Positions 26,831-35,807 of a stretch of DNA of 64,000 nucleotides are shown here, one piece after another. The stretch covers positions 62,001 through 126,000 of the forward strand of contig NZ_JAFVLN010000007.1 of NCBI RefSeq assembly GCF_017377775.1, read 5' to 3'. The stretch's first letter is position 1. Each line of letters begins with the position of its first letter. The notes below the pieces were generated by a model. It was not told the DNA's origin and made no database searches. It saw only the letters and a list, made by a program, of their open reading frames with translations. The DNA is from Streptomyces sp. VRA16 Mangrove soil. GTDB lineage: Bacteria > Actinomycetota > Actinomycetes > Streptomycetales > Streptomycetaceae. A program made the translations under genes and the position numbers.

Positions 26831-28234
26831 TCAGCCGGCCGGCACCGAGACGAACCGTGACGTCGCCCGCAGCTCGCTCTCGATCGCCTCGGCGGTCTCC
26901 CGCAGCGCCGCCAGCCACACCCCCGGCTCCCCCCGTCCCCGATGCGCCGTGACATCGAGCGCGGACACGACCACCCCGTCGGTCCCCCGCACCGGTACCG
27001 CCACCGACCACAGCCCGTCCTCGGGCCCCTCGGCCACGACCCCGTCACCCGCACCCGCCCCGCCCACCAGCACCCGCCCGGCAGCCGTGACCCGCACACC
27101 CAGCCGCGCCCCGACCCCGATGTCCACACTCATCACCCGCCGCGGCGCCACCCGCGCGGTGCACCGCACGAACTCCCCGCTCTCCCCGCTCCCGACGTCC
27201 CGCACCGAAAGCCCCACCGACTCCCCGAGCCGCTCCGAGAGCGCCGCCAGATGCGGCGCCGCGATGCGCGGCACCGTCGTGCGGGACAACGGCGCGCAGC
27301 CAAGACCGAGCACGCGCGGAGTGAGCCGGTAGGCGCGGCCGTCCTGACGCACGTACCCCAGGTGCTCGTACGTGATGAGCGCCCGCCGCGCCGTGGCACG
27401 GGCCAGCCCTGCGGCCCCGGCGATCTCGCTGAGCGTCATCGCGGGCCGCGCCGCGCTGAAGACGGTGAGCACACCGAGGCCGCGCGCGAGGGACTGGACG
27501 GGGGCCCCGTCCAGGACCCCGGTTCCGACGACGCCGGCGACGGGCTGCGGCGGCACCCGCAACCCCCGCAACACCTGCTCCATGCGCCGCACACACACCT
27601 CAAGCGGCCCACGCACCACATCCGCCAGCGACCGTGCCGTGTGCCGGCTCGTATGGCTGACCACGCTCACGGCACACACCACGGCCCCGTCGGCCCCCCG
27701 CACCGGCGCCGCCACCGCGATCAGTCCCGGCTCCACCAGCTGGTCGTCCACGGCCCGGTCGACGCCCCGCGCGAAGACGATCCCGGGCGCCGAACCCTCC
27801 CCGGGCAGCAGATCGCCCACCCGGAAACTGATCGACAGGGCCCGGCGCCGCAGCACCTGGTGCACGAACCGGATGTCGTCCCCGTCCGGCACGGCGATCG
27901 ACACGGACTCGTCGAGCTCGGCGGCGAGCGCGTCGGCGAGCGGCCCCAGCGGCCCCGGCACCCGCAGCGCGTCCAGACAGGCGTTGGCGACGGCCATCAG
28001 GGGCGGGGCGAGCGAGGCGTCCCGCCCGTCCAGGCGTACGTACCCGAGATGCGCCAGCGTCGCGCAGATCCGGTCCACCGTGGAACGGGCAAGACCGGTC
28101 ACCCGGGCCAGCTCGGCGAGCGCGAGCGTGCCGTCCGCGTCCGTGAGGCGCCGCAGCACGTCGAGGCCGCGCATCAGCGGGGCGACGGCCTCGGCGGGGG
28201 GCTGGTCCACGGGCGGGGAGGGCAGATCGAGCAC
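26831..28234 (-). CDS. Tandem-duplicated IclR-family regulator
   Basis: The 467-residue protein consists of two complete IclR units. Each has a winged helix (LALAELARVTGLARSTVDRICATLAHLGYVRLDG, near 37-70; MTLSEIAGAAGLARATARRALITYEHLGYVRQDG, near 265-298) and an effector-binding domain. The two helix-turn-helix copies are clearly related, so one chain can present two DNA-binding heads. IclR proteins usually control catabolic genes and bind small acids, but no catabolic operon is adjacent. The GTG start at 28234 lies 24 bp beyond the parB stop on the same strand, so it may be the last gene of the parA-parB transcript. Confidence 0.85.
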   Translation of the reverse strand: MLDLPSPPVDQPPAEAVAPLMRGLDVLRRLTDADGTLALAELARVTGLARSTVDRICATLAHLGYVRLDGRDASLAPPLMAVANACLDALRVPGPLGPLADALAAELDESVSIAVPDGDDIRFVHQVLRRRALSISFRVGDLLPGEGSAPGIVFARGVDRAVDDQLVEPGLIAVAAPVRGADGAVVCAVSVVSHTSRHTARSLADVVRGPLEVCVRRMEQVLRGLRVPPQPVAGVVGTGVLDGAPVQSLARGLGVLTVFSAARPAMTLSEIAGAAGLARATARRALITYEHLGYVRQDGRAYRLTPRVLGLGCAPLSRTTVPRIAAPHLAALSERLGESVGLSVRDVGSGESGEFVRCTARVAPRRVMSVDIGVGARLGVRVTAAGRVLVGGAGAGDGVVAEGPEDGLWSVAVPVRGTDGVVVSALDVTAHRGRGEPGVWLAALRETAEAIESELRATSRFVSVPAG

Positions 28235-28258: not shown

Positions 28259-29080
28259 CTAGCGGCTCAGCAACCGCACCACGCGGTCGAGCGCCGCCGG
28301 GGCCAGATGGCGGCGGAGCGCCTCCACGATCTCCTCCGGCGTCGAACGGCTGTCGAGCTCGATTACGCCGTAATCGTTCTTCCGGCGCTCGGGCTTGCCC
28401 TGGCGGGCGGCGGGGACCGCCGCCGTGAAGGGACCCGGCAGCTCCTGCTCGTCCCGCGGCAGCCGCGCGATGCGCCGCGCGTCCTCCACCGAGACCCGCC
28501 CGTCGGCCAGCGCCTCCTGGATGTCCTCGCGCAGCTTCATCAGGGAGAGCCGCTGCGAGATGAACCCCTGGGTCTTGCCGATCCGGGCGGCGACCTGGCG
28601 CTGCGAGTAGCCGTACGCGGTGATCAGGCCCTGGATGGCCTGCGCCTGCTCCAGCTCGGTGAGGTCGTCGCGCTGCACGTTCTCGATCAGCGCGTCCTCG
28701 TCGGAGCGCGTGGCGTCGTCCCTGACCAGGACCGGCACCTCGTCCAGGCCCGCCATCCGCGCGGCGGCGAGGCGCCGGTGGCCGTGCAGGACCACGTACG
28801 CGGCCTCGCCGACCGCCTCCTTGTGGCGCGGGTGGGCGGCGAGGAAGACGGCGGCCGGGACCACGCCCAGGGCCTGGAGGACGCCGCGCTCGCGCACCGT
28901 CTCGGCGAGTCCCTCCAGGTCACGCAGTTCGTGGCGCGGGTTGTCGGGGTTCTCGGCGAGGTCGGTGACGGCCACGGTGAGCGGCCGGGTGTCGGGCCGC
29001 TTCTTCGGCGCGGCCGCCGCCGTGGCCTGCCCGCCCTTGTCGGACGAGAGCAGGGAGGACAGATCGGTACGGCGGCCCAT
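28259..29080 (-). CDS. ParB/Spo0J-like partition protein
   Basis: The 273-residue protein has the ParB N-terminal CTPase/sulfiredoxin-like domain with NPDNPR near 49 and the LHGHRRLAAA arginine-patch motif near 103. ENVQRDDLTELEQA and a helix-turn-helix (YSQRQVAARIGKTQGFISQRLSLMKL, near 169-194) follow. The C-terminal domain (about 235-273) is short. It overlaps the parA stop by one base (TGATG), so the two are co-translated. It looks different from the housekeeping chromosomal ParB expected beside gidB/oriC and more like an extra, plasmid- or prophage-type copy. Confidence 0.87.
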   Translation of the reverse strand: MGRRTDLSSLLSSDKGGQATAAAAPKKRPDTRPLTVAVTDLAENPDNPRHELRDLEGLAETVRERGVLQALGVVPAAVFLAAHPRHKEAVGEAAYVVLHGHRRLAAARMAGLDEVPVLVRDDATRSDEDALIENVQRDDLTELEQAQAIQGLITAYGYSQRQVAARIGKTQGFISQRLSLMKLREDIQEALADGRVSVEDARRIARLPRDEQELPGPFTAAVPAARQGKPERRKNDYGVIELDSRSTPEEIVEALRRHLAPAALDRVVRLLSR

Positions 29081-29907
29081 CAGGCGGTCACCTTCTTCGT
29101 ACGGGAGTTCTTGGCGCCGGGGTTCTTGGTGCCGGGGTTCTTGGCACCGGACTTCTTCTCGGCGGCCTTGCGGGGCTTGCGTGCGGGCTTCGGGATCGCC
29201 GCGAGCCCCACCTCCAGGGCGAGGCGGAAGAAGTCCTCGCGGGCCTGGAGAGCGACCTTGTTGGCGCCGTACTGGGTGACGACCAGGCCGTCCGCGCTGG
29301 CGCGGGTGTGCAGCTTGTAGTGGCGCACGACCGTGCGGGCCAGCGGCCAGCCCTGGGCCTCGACGAAGGCGCGGGTCTGCTCCAGGTCGGCCCGCCCGTC
29401 GCGCGGGTCCCAGTTGTTGATGACGACGCGGAAGGGCAGCCCGCGCGGTTTCACGACCTTCTCCACCGTGCGCTGGGTGGGCTGGAAGCCGAGCGGCTCG
29501 GGCTCGACGGGGACGATGACGTCGGTGGCGTTGGAGAGCACCGCCCGCAGTGCGTCGGCCGCCGCGCCCTTGCCCAGCGGGTCCGCGCCGTCGTCCTCGG
29601 CGAGGTCGAGCCAGCCCGGGGTGTCGACGAAGACGTGCTGGGCGGACGGGATGCGGGACAGGGCCGCGAGCCCGGCGAGGTCGTCGTGGGCCTGCACGAA
29701 GTCGAACGGCAGGCCGTCGCCGACCCGCTCCGACCACCACACGGCGGAGCCCTGCGGGTCGATGGAGACGGCGACGACGGGCGGGCGCTCGCCGTCGGCC
29801 CGGTTGCCCGCGCCCAGGACGTCGGCCGTCACGGCGGCGAGGTTGACGGCGAGCGTGGACTTTCCGACGCCGCCCTTCTGATTGAGGATCACGTGTACAT
29901 ATGCCAC
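29080..29907 (-). CDS. ParA-like Walker ATPase
   Basis: The 275-residue protein has a deviant Walker A box KGGVGKST (11-18), a Walker A' aspartate in SIDPQGSAVWW, and Walker B VFVDTPG. It lacks an N-terminal DNA-binding extension. The C-terminus (about 248-275) is a Lys-rich tail (KPARKPRKAAEKK...NPGTKNPGAKN) that could bind nucleoid DNA. GTG 29907 is preferred because AGGGAG lies 5 nt upstream and the protein then begins right before the ATPase motif; a longer frame to 29988 has no such support. It forms a partition cassette with the downstream ParB-like gene. Confidence 0.88.
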   Translation of the reverse strand: MAYVHVILNQKGGVGKSTLAVNLAAVTADVLGAGNRADGERPPVVAVSIDPQGSAVWWSERVGDGLPFDFVQAHDDLAGLAALSRIPSAQHVFVDTPGWLDLAEDDGADPLGKGAAADALRAVLSNATDVIVPVEPEPLGFQPTQRTVEKVVKPRGLPFRVVINNWDPRDGRADLEQTRAFVEAQGWPLARTVVRHYKLHTRASADGLVVTQYGANKVALQAREDFFRLALEVGLAAIPKPARKPRKAAEKKSGAKNPGTKNPGAKNSRTKKVTA

Positions 29908-29992: not shown

Positions 29993-31048
29993 TCACGTAT
30001 GCGAGGAGACGCCCCAGATGTCCGGCGGGACGAGACGTTCGCGGTTGCCGTCCGGGCCGAGGACGTGCGCGCCGAGCTTGTGCACGCGCAGCGCGACCAT
30101 CGTGTCGGCGATCCGCAGTCCGGGGGCCTTGCGGGCCAGTCCCAGGGTGTACTCGGGCAGCTCCTCGATCCGGCCGAGCCAGGCGCAGACGAAGAGGTTG
30201 TGCGGCCCCGTGACGGTGGCGACGGTGCGGGTGTCGCGCAGCCGGGACACCGCGGCCGCGACCGGGGTGAGCTGGTCGGGCGGTACGTCGGCGCAGATCA
30301 GGCACCACACGGGGCGGCCGGAGTGGCGGGGTGCCACCTCGGTCCTGAAGAGCACCGCGGCGGTCGACTCCAGGCGGGACAGGCGGCGCCGCGCGGTCGA
30401 CTCGCCGGCGCCGATCCGCTTGGCGAGCGCGGCGACGCTGGCCCGGCCGTCCTCGGCGAGGGCGAGCAGGAGGCGCTGGTCGACGGCGTCGGGCGCCGCC
30501 ATCAGCGGGGCGGGCCGGACGGCACGGGATCCGCGGGTGTTCAGCGCCCTGACCTCGCGCAGCTGCTGCGGCGTGAGCTGGTTCAGGCGCGGGGGCGCGG
30601 CCGGGCCGTACAGGGCGGTGATGACATGCGTGCGGGTGGCGCGGACGCCGGGCAGCTTGTGCAGCCGCTCCACGACGTAGTGGTCGAGGGCGGCGGCGTC
30701 GGGCAGGGCGACGTACACCACGAGGTCGGCGGCGCCGGTGACGTGCTGCACGGTCAGGGTGCCGGGGTCCTCGACGAGCGCCGCCGCGGTGTCCGGCACG
30801 GTGCCGGCCGCGCACTCCACCCGGATCCAGGCCGTGCTGACCGCGGGGCTGCCCGCCGTCAGGGCGCCCGGGAGCATCCCCGACCAGGCGCGCCCCTGCG
30901 CCGTGAGGCGGGCCCAGCGCCGGGCGAGGGTGTCGGCGGAGGGGCCGAGCGCGGCCGCCAGCTGGGCCCAGCCGGCGCGGGGAGCGAGCTGAAGTGCGTG
31001 GATCAGGGTGAGATCGGCCTCCGAGACGGAGGATTCCCGTGGGGGCAC
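29993..31048 (-). CDS. Two-module Lrp/AsnC-family regulator
   Basis: The 351-residue protein has two AsnC-like winged helices (LTLIHALQLAPRAGWAQLAAALGPSADTLARRWARL near 12-47; DQRLLLALAEDGRASVAALAKRIGAGESTARRRLSRL near 185-221), each followed by an Lrp ligand-binding (RAM-type) domain. It is double the size of a classic Lrp protein (about 150). GTG 31048 has AGGAGAGG 2 nt upstream, a tight but usable spacing. It faces the NTPase gene across a 146-bp gap containing nested inverted repeats that could be its operator. Confidence 0.85.
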   Translation of the reverse strand: MPPRESSVSEADLTLIHALQLAPRAGWAQLAAALGPSADTLARRWARLTAQGRAWSGMLPGALTAGSPAVSTAWIRVECAAGTVPDTAAALVEDPGTLTVQHVTGAADLVVYVALPDAAALDHYVVERLHKLPGVRATRTHVITALYGPAAPPRLNQLTPQQLREVRALNTRGSRAVRPAPLMAAPDAVDQRLLLALAEDGRASVAALAKRIGAGESTARRRLSRLESTAAVLFRTEVAPRHSGRPVWCLICADVPPDQLTPVAAAVSRLRDTRTVATVTGPHNLFVCAWLGRIEELPEYTLGLARKAPGLRIADTMVALRVHKLGAHVLGPDGNRERLVPPDIWGVSSHT

Positions 31049-31194: not shown

Positions 31195-33276
31195 ATGGCG
31201 CTTCACGACGACGCTCGGGACGACGGCCCGGCGGGCCACCTCGTCGGCCGCGGCCGCGAGCTGGCCGCGCTGCTGTCCCGGCTCGCCACGTCCCGGCTGG
31301 TCTCCCTGACGGGGCTGCCGGGCGTCGGGCGCACCCGGCTCGCCCGTGAGGCCGCCGGTCAGCTGCGGCGCGAAGTGGTGTGGGAGTCGGGCGCCGGATA
31401 CGAGCCGGAGATGCTCCCCGGCGTCGGGGCGCGGCTGCGGCACCGGTGCGCAGGGCGGCGCGGGATGCTGCTGGTGCTCGACGACTGGGACCACCTCGGC
31501 GGCGCGGGCACGGCCCTGGTCGCCTCGCTCCTCCTGGACCTCCCGCACCTGACCGTCCTGGTGGTCGCCGAGCGCCCCTGCCATCTGCGCGGCGAGACGG
31601 CCGTGGTGCTCCGCCCGCTCGCGGTCCCCCCGCCCGGCTGCCCGCCCGAGGAGGCCCGCCGGTACGAGGCCGTGGAGCTGCTGCGTGCGGTGCTCGGGGA
31701 GGCGGCGGTGGACCGCGACCCGCGGGCCGCCGCGGAACTGTGCCGCCGGTTCGGCGGGGTGCCCGGGACGCTGCTGGCGGCGGCCGGGGACGCAGCGGGT
31801 GCAGGGGGTACAAGGGACGCAGTGGGTGCAGGGGACGCAGGGGGCACAGACGGCACAGACGGCACAGAGGGCACAGAGGGCACAGAGGGCGCAGGGGATG
31901 CAGGGGACGTTGTCCCCGGGCTGGGCGCCGCCGCCCGGTCCCACGCCCGCTGCTCCCGCGTCGAGCGGGTGCTGTGGCGCAGGCTCGCCGTCTTCGCCGG
32001 GGAGTTCGGGCGGGAGGCCGTGCGGGAGGTCTGCGGGGGCGGGCCGCTGCCCGCCGGGCAGGTGCTCGACATCCTCGACCGGATCGCCCCGCATGTGCTG
32101 ATCCACGACCCGGAGACCGACCGCTACCGGTTGCCGCCCGCCCAACGCGCCGTAGGAGTAGGGGAGTTGGCGGAGTCCGGCGAGCGGTGGTCGACCGTGT
32201 TCCAGCACCGGCGATGGGCCCTCGGCGTCGCCCGGCAGGCCGCCGAGTGGTGGAACGCCGGACGCCAGGACGAGGCCGTCGCGCTGGCCCTGCGGGAGCT
32301 GCCCGAGCTGCGGGCCGCCATGGACCCGGCGACGGCGCCCCTCTCCCCGCACGTCGAGGCGGCCACGGCGGTCGACGTCGTGGTGCACCTCTGGTTCCTC
32401 TGGGCGGCGTGCGGGCGCACCGCCGAGGGCCGCGACCTGCTGCGGCACGCCCTCTCCCTGCACCAGGAAGCCCCGCCCGCGCGGGCGCTGTGGCTCGCCG
32501 CCTGGCTGGAGCTGGACCTCGGCGCCCCCGAGGCCGCCGATCCGCTGCTCACGGCGGCCTGGGCGGCGGCGGTGCGCGAGGGCGACGAGCACTGCCTGGG
32601 CCTGCTCGCACACCTGCGGGGCTCGGTGGCGCTGTGGCAGGGCCGCAGCGACGCGGCGGCCAGGGACTTCCACGAGGCCGTCGCACGCGTCGGCGACGCC
32701 ACGCACTTCGGCCCCGGGCCCCAGCAGTGCCGGGCCGCGCTCGCCCTCGCCCTGGTCCGCACGGACCCGGACGCGGCCCTGGAGGTGGCCCAGGACGGCC
32801 CCGGCCACCCCGGCGGCGCCCGGGACGTGTGGGCGGAGGCATGGCTGCGGTACGTGCGTGCCGAGGCGCTGCGCTGGGTGGGCGACGCCGACTCCGCGCA
32901 CACGCTGGCGCGCTCGGCGCTGCGTACGTTCCTCGGGTACGGCTCCACGGTCGGCGGGCGCTGCGCGGCCGAACTGCTCGCCGACGTGACGGCGATGCGC
33001 GGCGAGGGGGAGCGGGCGGCCCAACTCCTCGGCGCCGTCGACGCGTTGCGGGCCGCGGCGCCGCCCATGTCGCGGGCGCCGTATCTGGACCCCGTGCGCC
33101 GCAGGGCCGAGCAGCTCCTCGAAGGGCTGCTCCCGGTCGAGCGGCGCGCCGCGGCGTACGAGCGCGGGGCGCGCCTGGGGCTCGTACGGATCCTGGACGG
33201 GGACGACAGGGAGAAGTCGCGAAATCTCGAACCGTGGGGCGTGGGGTGCAATACCTTGCCCTCGTGGACCAGTTGA
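31195..33276 (+). CDS. STAND-like NTPase with C-terminal helical repeats
   Basis: The 693-residue protein resembles the ATPase-plus-TPR part of LuxR/AfsR-type regulators but has no DNA-binding domain. The N-terminus has VGRGRELAALLSRL and the P-loop GLPGVGRT (40-47), in which the usual lysine is arginine (R46). Walker B is MLLVLDDWDH (near 100). A Gly/Thr/Asp/Glu linker near 200-235 is coded by 9-bp repeats. The rest (about 330-680) is alpha-helical, TPR-like. ATG 31195 is chosen by the start of the NTPase domain. It overlaps the kinase-MFS gene by 13 bp, so the two products are probably made together and may act together. Confidence 0.78.
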   Translation: MALHDDARDDGPAGHLVGRGRELAALLSRLATSRLVSLTGLPGVGRTRLAREAAGQLRREVVWESGAGYEPEMLPGVGARLRHRCAGRRGMLLVLDDWDHLGGAGTALVASLLLDLPHLTVLVVAERPCHLRGETAVVLRPLAVPPPGCPPEEARRYEAVELLRAVLGEAAVDRDPRAAAELCRRFGGVPGTLLAAAGDAAGAGGTRDAVGAGDAGGTDGTDGTEGTEGTEGAGDAGDVVPGLGAAARSHARCSRVERVLWRRLAVFAGEFGREAVREVCGGGPLPAGQVLDILDRIAPHVLIHDPETDRYRLPPAQRAVGVGELAESGERWSTVFQHRRWALGVARQAAEWWNAGRQDEAVALALRELPELRAAMDPATAPLSPHVEAATAVDVVVHLWFLWAACGRTAEGRDLLRHALSLHQEAPPARALWLAAWLELDLGAPEAADPLLTAAWAAAVREGDEHCLGLLAHLRGSVALWQGRSDAAARDFHEAVARVGDATHFGPGPQQCRAALALALVRTDPDAALEVAQDGPGHPGGARDVWAEAWLRYVRAEALRWVGDADSAHTLARSALRTFLGYGSTVGGRCAAELLADVTAMRGEGERAAQLLGAVDALRAAAPPMSRAPYLDPVRRRAEQLLEGLLPVERRAAAYERGARLGLVRILDGDDREKSRNLEPWGVGCNTLPSWTS
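31843..31887 (+). repeat. 9-bp coding minisatellite in the NTPase gene
   Basis: Five consecutive GGCACAGAC/GGCACAGAG units encode GTD/GTE repeats. Decayed versions of the unit extend to about 31794 and 31910. The repeat is in frame and would change linker length by three residues per unit. Confidence 0.75.
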
Positions 33277-35807
33277 TCGCTTCCGACCCGACGCACATGG
33301 GCCCGTACCGGCTGATCGCGCGCCTCGGCGCCGGCGGTATGGGCCTCGTCTACCTCGGCCGCTCGGCGGCCGGGCGGACCGTCGCCGTGAAGGTCGTGCA
33401 GGCCGAGTACGCGCAGAACCCCGAGTTCCGGCGGCGGTTCGCGCGGGAGGTGGCGGCGGCCCGCAAGGTGGGCGGGGACTGGACGGCGGACGTGCTCGAC
33501 GCCGACACGGACGCGCAGACCCCGTGGGTGGCGACCCAGTACATCCCCGGGCCCGATCTGACGGCCGTGGTCGCCAAGGACTTCGGGCCGCTGCCCGTCG
33601 ACTCCGTGACCGTGCTCGCCCACCGGCTCGCGCAGGCGCTGCGGGCCGTGCACGGCGCCGGCCTGATCCACCGCGACCTCAAGCCGTCGAACGTCCTGGT
33701 CACCGTCGACGGGCCGCGCGTCATCGACTTCGGCATCGCCCGCGCCATGGACAGCCTCGCCCAGGACAGTCTGCTCACCCGCACGGGCATGTTCGTCGGT
33801 TCGCCCGGATTCATGTCGCCGGAGCAGGTGCGCGGCCGTGAACTCACCCCGGCCAGCGACGTGTTCTGCCTCGGCGCGGTCCTCGTCTTCGCCGCCACCG
33901 GCCGGCTGCTGTTCGGCGCCGCCGACGCCGGGCTCAACGCCCATCTGTTCCGGGTCGCCGAGGAGGAGCCCGACCTGACCGGCGTCCCCGAGCCGCTGCT
34001 CGGTCTCGTCCGGTCGTGTCTCGCCAAGGACCCGGCCGAGCGGCCCACACCGGAGGAGATAGCGCAGCGCACCCAGGTGAGTTCGCAGGAGGAGTGGCTG
34101 CCGGGCGCGGTCCTGGCCCAACTGGGGCGGCACGCGGCGAAGTTGCTGGACTTCGCGCCGGAGACGAGAGCGGACCAGCAGCCCTCGGTGTCCGTCCCCG
34201 CCCAGGCGCCAGAGCCCACAACCGCCCTCACGCCGGCCTCCGCGCAGGGGGCGACCCCGTCCGTCGGGTTCGGGCCGCCGCCCGCGCCGTACGGGGCCCC
34301 GCAGTGGTCCCCACCTGCGCCGCCCGGCTACGCGCCCACCGTCGCGCTCGGGGACTCCGCGCGTCCCAACCCGCACCGCAGGCAGGGCGTCGTGGCCGTC
34401 GCGCTCGTGCTGCTCACGGTGAGCTTCGGGGCGTCGTTCGCGGGGCCGGCGCTCAACGTGATCGAGAGGGACCTGCACGCGAGCGCCACCGAACTGAACT
34501 GGCTGTACGGCGGATACGCGCTCGGTTTCGGCGCGCTGCTGTTCCTCGGTGGTCTGTTCGCGGACCGGGTGGGCCGCAAACGCATGATGGTCGTCGGCCT
34601 GTCCGGGATCGCCGTCACCGCCCTGGCCGCGGGTCTGGCCCCGGCGATCCCCGTGATGATCGCGGCCGCCGTCGCGCAGGGCGCCTTCGCCGGGCTCGTT
34701 GTGCCTGCCGCGTTGTCCTTGGTGGCGGCCGACTTCCCCGAGCCGCGGGGGCGTGCCTACGCGTTCGGGGTCTATGCCGCGGTCGCCGCGGGCGGTGAGT
34801 GGCTTGCGCTGGTCCCCGCCAACTGGCTCATCGAGGAAGTAAGTTGGCGCAGCATCCTGCTTGCGGCGGCGGGCTTCGCCGTGCTGTCCGTCCTCGTCGT
34901 CGCCGCTGCGGTGCGCGATCCGCACGGCCGCACCGCCGTCGGGTCCGGCGCGCTGTCCGTGCTGACCGGCACCTTCGGGACCGTCGCCCTCGTCTACGGC
35001 TGTTTCAAGGCGTCCCTGGAAGGCTGGGCGCACCCCGACGTCGTGGTCCCGCTGTTGGTGGGCGCGGCTCTGTTCGCGGTCTCCGTGGTGGGGCAGTCGC
35101 GGCCCACGACGCCGGCGCAGGCCGAGCCGGTCCCGGGCCGGGTCCGGGCCGGGGCGTTCGTCGCGTTGCTGCTGGTCTGCGGCGGCACGTACGCCATTGC
35201 CTCGTCGGCGAGTTCGTTCCTCTACAACGTCCAGGGCCTGGCCCCCAGCGGCATCTCGGTGCTGCTGCTGCCGCTGCCCGTCGCGCTCGTCGTCGGCGCC
35301 GTCCTGATCGCGCCCCGGCTGCGCAGCCGCTTCGCACCGCCCGCCGTGATCGTGCCGGGCCTGTTGCTCTGCGCGCTCGGCGCGGGAGTGCTCTCCCTGC
35401 TCGCGCCGAACAGCTCCTACCTGCCTCTGGTGCCGATCGCGCTGGTTTTGGACGGCCTGGGCCTCGGCCTGGCCCTGATGCCGCTGTACTCCCTGGCGAC
35501 GGCTGGCGGCGTGGGGCGCGGCACGGGCGGCGACGCGGCCATGGCCGGGGCGGCGGTCCAGGTGGGCGGCTCGCTGGGCGCCGCCCTGCTTGGCGCCGCC
35601 TGGCTCAGCGCCTACCAGGACGCGAACCGACGGGCCGACACCGCGAGCGACGCGCAGAGCCTCTTCCGGAGCGCGGCGGTGGACGGCAGCGTCATCGGCC
35701 TGTTCTGGGGCCTCGCACTGATCGTGCTCGCAGTCCTGCTCGTGGCGGTGCTGGTGCGGGCCCGCACCAGCACCGCTCAGGGCGCGCCGCCCTCCGTACG
35801 CGCCTGA
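33264..35807 (+). CDS. Hanks-type Ser/Thr protein kinase fused to a 14-TM MFS transporter
   Basis: The predicted 847-residue protein begins with a complete eukaryote-like kinase domain (about 12-275). It shows the glycine loop LGAGGMGLVYLG (21-32), the ATP lysine K43, the catalytic loop HRDLKPSN (near 136-143), DFG (near 155) and MSPEQ, all intact. A Pro/Ala/Gln-rich linker (about 290-370) leads into 14 hydrophobic segments (about 375-840). The DHA2-family MFS motif A, GGLFADRVGRKRMM, lies after the second. Bacterial kinases often carry one helix and a sensor domain here; a whole drug-exporter-like permease is unusual. GTG 33264 overlaps the NTPase stop. GTG 33246 is possible. The frame is unbroken, so a sequencing fusion is unlikely. 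Confidence 0.9.
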   Translation: MDQLIASDPTHMGPYRLIARLGAGGMGLVYLGRSAAGRTVAVKVVQAEYAQNPEFRRRFAREVAAARKVGGDWTADVLDADTDAQTPWVATQYIPGPDLTAVVAKDFGPLPVDSVTVLAHRLAQALRAVHGAGLIHRDLKPSNVLVTVDGPRVIDFGIARAMDSLAQDSLLTRTGMFVGSPGFMSPEQVRGRELTPASDVFCLGAVLVFAATGRLLFGAADAGLNAHLFRVAEEEPDLTGVPEPLLGLVRSCLAKDPAERPTPEEIAQRTQVSSQEEWLPGAVLAQLGRHAAKLLDFAPETRADQQPSVSVPAQAPEPTTALTPASAQGATPSVGFGPPPAPYGAPQWSPPAPPGYAPTVALGDSARPNPHRRQGVVAVALVLLTVSFGASFAGPALNVIERDLHASATELNWLYGGYALGFGALLFLGGLFADRVGRKRMMVVGLSGIAVTALAAGLAPAIPVMIAAAVAQGAFAGLVVPAALSLVAADFPEPRGRAYAFGVYAAVAAGGEWLALVPANWLIEEVSWRSILLAAAGFAVLSVLVVAAAVRDPHGRTAVGSGALSVLTGTFGTVALVYGCFKASLEGWAHPDVVVPLLVGAALFAVSVVGQSRPTTPAQAEPVPGRVRAGAFVALLLVCGGTYAIASSASSFLYNVQGLAPSGISVLLLPLPVALVVGAVLIAPRLRSRFAPPAVIVPGLLLCALGAGVLSLLAPNSSYLPLVPIALVLDGLGLGLALMPLYSLATAGGVGRGTGGDAAMAGAAVQVGGSLGAALLGAAWLSAYQDANRRADTASDAQSLFRSAAVDGSVIGLFWGLALIVLAVLLVAVLVRARTSTAQGAPPSVRA

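Follow-up and report, generated by a model that had tools for sequence, protein, structure and literature searches.

A serine/threonine kinase fused to a 14-helix MFS domain in Streptomyces: a probable shift from pump towards sensor

One unbroken reading frame in the analysed window, a stretch of 64,000 nucleotides of Streptomyces DNA, joins a Hanks-type Ser/Thr kinase to a whole transporter domain of the MFS type. The fusion recurs in other genomes of the genus with a conserved kinase, and its transporter half retains the fold of an exporter and has lost residues that stand-alone exporters keep. This combination of kept kinase and fold with lost pump residues fits a transporter turned receptor. 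Specifically, we read the product as a membrane-bound Ser/Thr kinase whose membrane part comes from a 14-helix, EfpA-like DHA2 exporter and has shifted from pump towards sensory domain, a reading to which we give a rough probability of 0.6. The gene and its parts are as follows.

33264..35807, + strand: kinase-MFS fusion gene, 847 aa plus stop, GTG start (uninterrupted frame, Pfam domains, relatives' starts)
33306..34070, + strand: AfsK-like Hanks Ser/Thr kinase domain, residues 15-269, catalytically complete by its residues (Pfam, NCBIfam, invariant residues)
34095..34160, + strand: conserved post-kinase stretch WLPGxVLAQLGRHAAxLLD, residues 278-299 (alignment)
34161..34376, + strand: Pro/Ala-rich linker, residues 300-371 (modelled mostly at low confidence in the full-length prediction)
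34329..34340, + strand: Y-x-P-T motif in the linker, residues 356-359 (comparison of fusions with paralogues)
34377..35762, + strand: 14-helix EfpA-like MFS domain, residues about 372-833 (Pfam, hydropathy, AlphaFold2, Foldseek)

An earlier note on this DNA had claimed that kinase and transporter share one frame, and they do: the frame runs from the GTG at 33264 through 847 codons to a stop ending at 35807. Its start agrees with the V-x-Q-L start region of most relatives (L016 is the exception), and the GC content by codon position over the MFS part (0.75/0.54/0.93) matches the coding DNA of such genomes. The kinase domain is recognized by Pfam (Pkinase, residues 15-269, E 1e-37) and holds the Lys, Glu, HRD, Asn, DFG and APE-like elements of Hanks kinases. 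The residues K43, E62, H136-R137-D138, K140, N143, D155-F156-G157 and E187 are invariant in the ten aligned full-length fusions, which supports the note's further claim of a catalytically complete enzyme. Among NCBIfam models, the kinase half appears nearest to the N-terminal part of AfsK; model NF053615 matches residues 1-367 with 293.8 bits over 358 N-terminal positions of its 809, against a cut-off of 1300 bits for a whole AfsK. AfsK-like paralogues share the kinase domain and, in six of eleven cases (L002, L003, L019-L022), the post-kinase WLPG...LLD stretch. They differ in what follows: by eye, five of seven non-fused frames (L002, L003, L019, L020, L022) continue into one membrane helix and an outer domain, whereas the window protein continues into a 14-helix MFS domain. 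Twelve other kinase frames (L088-L094, L002, L019-L022; L094 is cut by a contig end) score no more than 6.1 bits against the MFS profile. The highest value belongs to the AfsK-like kinase L021, whose C-terminal part, by eye, has several hydrophobic segments and which, in the kinase tree as plotted, stands close to the base.

Between the two halves, the linker carries a short motif that sets the fusions apart. Y-x-P-T occurs in all ten full-length fusions and, within 200 residues after the kinase, in none of eleven non-fused paralogues; in shuffled linkers it appeared on average in 0.32 of 11 and at most in 3 (2000 rounds). The truncated plasmid copy (L009) yielded no such motif, nor, on reading, did the linker of the split copy in genome G101, both described below. 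Common descent alone could explain part of this conservation, and a role as phosphorylation or docking site is possible, as a guess.

The transporter half is recognized by Pfam as MFS_1 (residues 380-773, E 5.9e-33), and its hydropathy profile shows 14 hydrophobic segments between residues 375 and 831. AlphaFold2 predicts an MFS fold for residues 366-847 with high confidence (56 aligned sequences, mean pLDDT 91.4, pTM 0.91). The best solved Foldseek matches of this model are EfpA on ranks 1-4 (TM 0.79-0.81) and QacA next (0.77), so that hydropathy, model and structural matches agree on a 14-helix MFS fold. The NCBIfam DHA2 model TIGR00711 scores 111.1 bits, under its cut-off of 230.2; despite this score, the predicted fold and the tree place the half within DHA2. 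In the label "DHA2-type exporter" given in the earlier note, "DHA2-type" is correct as to origin, and "exporter" is putative as to present function. A full-length model, which the note had also proposed, was poor (mean pLDDT 58.6) and offers no view of contact between the halves, probably for want of enough variation among the ten kinases to guide it.

The fusion belongs to a family within the genus. Protein searches of 50 genomes of the window's genus (25 + 17 + 8), run at E-value limits of 1e-120 and 1e-140, found it in nine genomes as ten full-length proteins (L001, the window copy, and L014, L015, L016, L017, L018, L028, L029, L030 and L054); there are ten because G054 carries two. These two are distinct kinase-MFS fusions that lie about 300 kb from each other and have different neighbours (L031, L032). 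Fusions with a very divergent MFS part could have been missed at these limits: L018 was retrieved through its kinase half only, its MFS half becoming apparent on reading of the open frame, which scores 304 bits against an MFS profile with L018 among its members. Sixteen genomes outside the genus gave no match at 1e-120. A family-wide profile search (41 genomes, 36 of them outside the genus), from which 10 loci were fetched for reading, returned the window protein as the sole match spanning both halves, and three further genomes of the genus (G088, G097, G104) gave no fusion match in the profile search. A second fusion in the window's own genome was sought as well; 0 of 89 reported matches spanned both halves (150 of 173 candidates scored), and a single-protein search of genome contigs returned four distant MFS matches only.

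Two loci in other genera of the family show related layouts. In G098, the linker is cut by the start of a contig, which holds Y-x-P-T and continues as an MFS domain (L087, 3-1520) with Gln at the TM1 Asp position. This seems to be a further kinase-MFS fusion. A kinase end was sought for it and not found, the best kinases of that genome being 51-56% identical to the window kinase. In G101 (L095, 2808-5710), a close kinase (72%) and an MFS part lie in different overlapping frames with the change in a GC-rich linker, which may be a split gene or a sequence error. Plasmid searches returned 713 records with a match, none covering 80% of the query. One of the 20 records listed, a linear plasmid of Streptomyces sp. 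NBC_00212, carries kinase and MFS in a fusion that stops after about six helices (L009, 8001-9689). A tblastn search with the MFS part alone gave no plasmid match despite this copy. Because its label is just "MFS transporter", automatic annotation can mask the fusion; the plasmid matches listed also include a gene annotated "bifunctional serine/threonine-protein kinase/ABC transporter".

What distinguishes the fused transporters from their relatives is seen at positions tied to drug/H+ antiport, which in the window protein read as follows.

34428..34430, + strand: Gly389 in place of the TM1 Asp found in DHA2 exporters (QacA D34, inferred homology; alignment)
34515..34517, + strand: Tyr418, the conserved TM2 Tyr, kept (QacA Y63, inferred homology; alignment)
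34551..34577, + strand: motif A, residues 430-438, with Gly430, Asp434, Gly437 and Arg438 kept and the GGR Arg replaced by Leu (alignment)
34668..34670, + strand: Ala469 in place of the motif-B Arg of TM4 (QacA R114, inferred homology; alignment)
34794..34823, + strand: degenerate antiporter motif C, residues 511-520 (alignment)

By homology, QacA D34, R114 and Y63 would correspond to window positions 389, 469 and 418. Parts of a QacA study describe D34 as essential for all substrate types and in contact with motif B R114 and with Y63 (PMC10425836). Measured against DHA2 drug/H+ antiporters, the window protein thus has Gly and Ala in place of the TM1 Asp and the TM4 Arg, and its motif C keeps Gly at 511 and lacks three glycines (A at 515, A at 519, N at 520). 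It retains the motif A Gly and Asp and the TM2 Tyr.

These losses recur across the family. The comparison covered 11 fusions (the truncated L009 among them) and 47 stand-alone relatives at 23 columns chosen by eye in the N-terminal half; as the rows are related, the Fisher values for these columns are not independent tests. The TM1 Asp is present in 4/11 fusions versus 46/47 stand-alone proteins (two of the seven fusions without it have Glu), the TM4 Arg in 8/11 versus 47/47, a Trp after TM1 in 2/11 versus 47/47, and the first Gly of the motif C pair in 5/11 versus 46/47. The TM2 Tyr stands in 9/11 versus 47/47 and the motif A Asp in all 11 and all 47. Several of the 23 columns show no difference between the groups, among them the TM4 Gln (10/11 fusions), the TM4 Gly (11/11) and the first motif C Gly (10/11). 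A check independent of hand-picked motifs used 51 columns conserved in 42 stand-alone rows and left out the truncated L009 and the partial L084. Four held-out sister exporters keep 50-51 of these columns, the ten fusions 31-48: 32 in the window protein (L001), 46 in L014, 43 in L015, 32 in L016, 31 in L017, 35 in L018, 48 in L028, 44 in L029, 36 in L030 and 42 in L054. In a leave-one-out test, stand-alone rows had a minimum of 0.74 and a median of 0.98. L001, L016, L017, L018 and L030 fall under this minimum; L014, L015, L028, L029 and L054 lie within the stand-alone range, and transport may therefore persist in these five. Over TM1-TM5, each of the 11 fusions lacks 3-15 of 160 core columns, which were defined on the stand-alone set, against at most one in the 47 stand-alone proteins. 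The motif A Gly and Asp and other glycines are invariant among the fusions. A fusion-only column common to all ten fusions was not found; at 30 columns, a fusion-typical residue occurs in 7-9 of the ten.

The two halves have also evolved at unequal rates. Over 36 pairs among nine fusions (L054 and L009 left out), kinases are 79-90% identical versus 31-59% for the MFS parts. A stand-alone exporter group from eight of the nine fusion-bearing genomes (L058-L062, L064, L065, L072) is 76-93% identical, a range that may be unusually high since the group was picked as an easily recognized set. Between G012 and G055, identity is 90% for the kinase, 50% for the fused MFS part and 92% for the stand-alone exporter; for the syntenic pair G012-G019, the values are 90%, 56% and 81%. 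Out of 15 pairs, only L014-L028 allowed dN/dS to be computed for kinase and MFS part alike (the others are probably saturated); it is 0.037 for the kinase and 0.193 for the MFS part.

Phylogenetic analysis is compatible with a single origin. In the kinase tree, a branch (91/98) separates the eleven fusion kinases, among them L009, from eleven AfsK-like paralogues; the bootstrap had not settled, several branches are long and one paralogue row is 18% filled. In the MFS tree, a quick search with long branches from which L009 and L084 were left out, a branch with SH-aLRT 100 sets the ten fused domains apart; they lie within the stand-alone exporters, beside L057, L063 and L071 (support 90). Another MFS tree, with the kinase row nb_L033 among its rows, did not have the fusions on one side of a branch (2 changes). 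The alignments A1 and A2 were made without L009, and A2 also without L084. Together, the kinase and MFS trees would fit one ancestral fusion of the kinase with an EfpA-like exporter.

These data suggest how such a protein might work. By the topology of the superfamily, in which the N-terminus of an MFS domain faces the cytosol, the N-terminal kinase would be cytosolic, and a flexible, Pro-rich linker would connect it to TM1. The MFS cavity may bind a hydrophobic or lipid-like ligand or respond to the state of the membrane. Motif A is tied to the inward/outward switch in MFS proteins. The window copy has kept the fold and most of this cytosolic motif, and the TM1 Asp and TM4 Arg of proton-coupled export are gone. 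A change of conformation would affect how the kinases pair or autophosphorylate, with the Y-x-P-T of the linker as a conceivable site, and the signal would then be relayed by the kinase to cytosolic targets. Part of an EfpA structure report describes three bound lipids (PMC10802681), which by analogy makes a lipid or other hydrophobic ligand a reasonable guess and no more.

Of the two ideas put forward in the earlier note, a kinase with a transporter as its sensor is favoured over a self-phosphorylating transporter for the window copy, given the repeated loss, in fused MFS domains, of residues retained by stand-alone exporters. The same losses bear on the question whether the protein is still a working exporter with a built-in kinase, in which the kinase regulates transport or flux regulates the kinase. 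L014 and L028, which retain the TM1 Asp and TM4 Arg and match 46 and 48, respectively, of the 51 columns, would suit such a transceptor, for which the histidine transporter and kinase CbrA provides a precedent (PMC13022988). However, the window protein lacks both charged residues and three motif C glycines, and the TM1 Asp is missing from 7/11 fusions (with Glu in two), which makes active export with a built-in kinase quite unlikely here. The MFS part might instead be a mere membrane anchor or a decaying passenger under weak selection, with the signal coming from elsewhere. The fast change of this half could reflect weak selection rather than sensing, as could the core residues missing from TM1-TM5 in all 11 fusions and the plasmid copy that ends after about six helices. 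Against this, all ten full-length copies remain open with 13-14 hydrophobic segments after the linker, the nine in which GC was measured (L054 left out) have a coding pattern over the MFS part, the motif A Gly and Asp and other glycines are invariant, and dN/dS is 0.19 in the single computable pair; we regard an anchor or passenger as improbable, with some evidence in its favour.

A frameshift or assembly artefact joining neighbouring genes is a further reading, and the different frames of kinase and MFS in G101 are what it would predict. Close relatives that were all split by a stop would have pointed to it, as the earlier note proposed, but ten full-length proteins including the window copy read through. 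The other nine come from eight other genomes with mostly different neighbours; assembly error is rejected for the family on these fused frames, and for the window it is hardly credible.

Compared with known systems, the preferred reading of an exporter turned sensor finds its closest working analogue in Ks-Amt5, with CbrA as the active-transport counterpart. In Ks-Amt5, as part of the published account has it, the Amt domain binds ammonium without efficient translocation and kinase phosphorylation is coupled to ammonium (PMC5764959). A transporter fold would thus likewise have been recruited as the sensory module of a kinase, but Ks-Amt5 combines an Amt fold with a histidine kinase and ammonium, whereas the window protein combines an MFS fold with an N-terminal Hanks Ser/Thr kinase. 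CbrA also holds transporter and kinase in one polypeptide; unlike the window protein, it has an SLC5 domain that still moves histidine, together with STAC, PAS and histidine-kinase domains, and no MFS, according to excerpts of a preprint that calls transporter-kinase proteins rare (PMC13022988). As in these transceptors, transporter fold and kinase share one chain in the window protein; its output is a eukaryote-like Ser/Thr kinase, while both chimeras compared use histidine kinases. EfpA/QacA-type DHA2 exporters share fold and sequence family with the MFS half; the window protein differs from them in bearing a kinase and in lacking the TM1 Asp, TM4 Arg and motif C Gly. Ser/Thr kinases with ABC-type solute-binding or MalT-like domains also pair a kinase with a part from, or named after, a transport system, but as far as the survey's main text goes these are soluble ligand-binding or regulatory domains and no whole membrane transporter (PMC1262709). 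The terms "MFS" and "facilitator" are absent from the main text of this 2005 survey of prokaryotic Ser/Thr kinase architectures, and likewise from the accessible text of a 2010 classification (PMC2877116). In line with the earlier note, which knew of no characterized protein of this layout, none of the papers listed by full-text searches of the open-access literature has a title or abstract start describing a Hanks kinase-MFS protein.

A more far-reaching proposal, tentative and in our estimate short of even odds, is that the family forms a new transceptor lineage, in which a Hanks Ser/Thr kinase is under the control of a former MFS exporter; proton coupling would be lost and ligand sensing its sole remaining task, the ligand possibly being lipid or hydrophobic as in EfpA. 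Its members would range from pump (L028, L014) to pure sensor (the window copy, L017, L016). With members that keep or lose pump residues, the family would allow the change from pump to receptor to be traced. It would also permit testing what kind of signal a transporter fold hands on to a membrane Ser/Thr kinase.

The surroundings of the gene differ among the window and nine other loci, which indicates that it has moved or been duplicated, or that the DNA around it is much rearranged. Three neighbours are common to L023 and L024 (about 70-85% identity). Some loci also have one gene in common; for instance, a methionyl-tRNA synthetase gene lies beside the L033 fusion, and a relative (83%) lies about 18 kb from the window fusion. 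No conserved partner gene was found at the examined fusion loci, and no neighbour there hints at signal or target. Directly upstream in the window, 31195-33276 (+) overlaps the fusion start by 13 bases and encodes a 693-aa protein with a weak AAA_16 match (26.5 bits, under the Pfam cut-off) and no NCBIfam match. It was rejected as a conserved operon partner, having no counterpart at nine other fusion loci (blastp E 1e-15; L054 left out). Further upstream, 29993-31048 (-) encodes a 351-aa regulator of the AsnC/Lrp type whose single chain has two helix-turn-helix stretches, and in 28259-29892 (-) a ParB-like gene adjoins a gene for a ParA/CbiA-like ATPase. The 467-aa product of 26831-28234 (-) has two IclR-type helix-turn-helix stretches, apparently tandem PcaR/IclR regulators in one chain.
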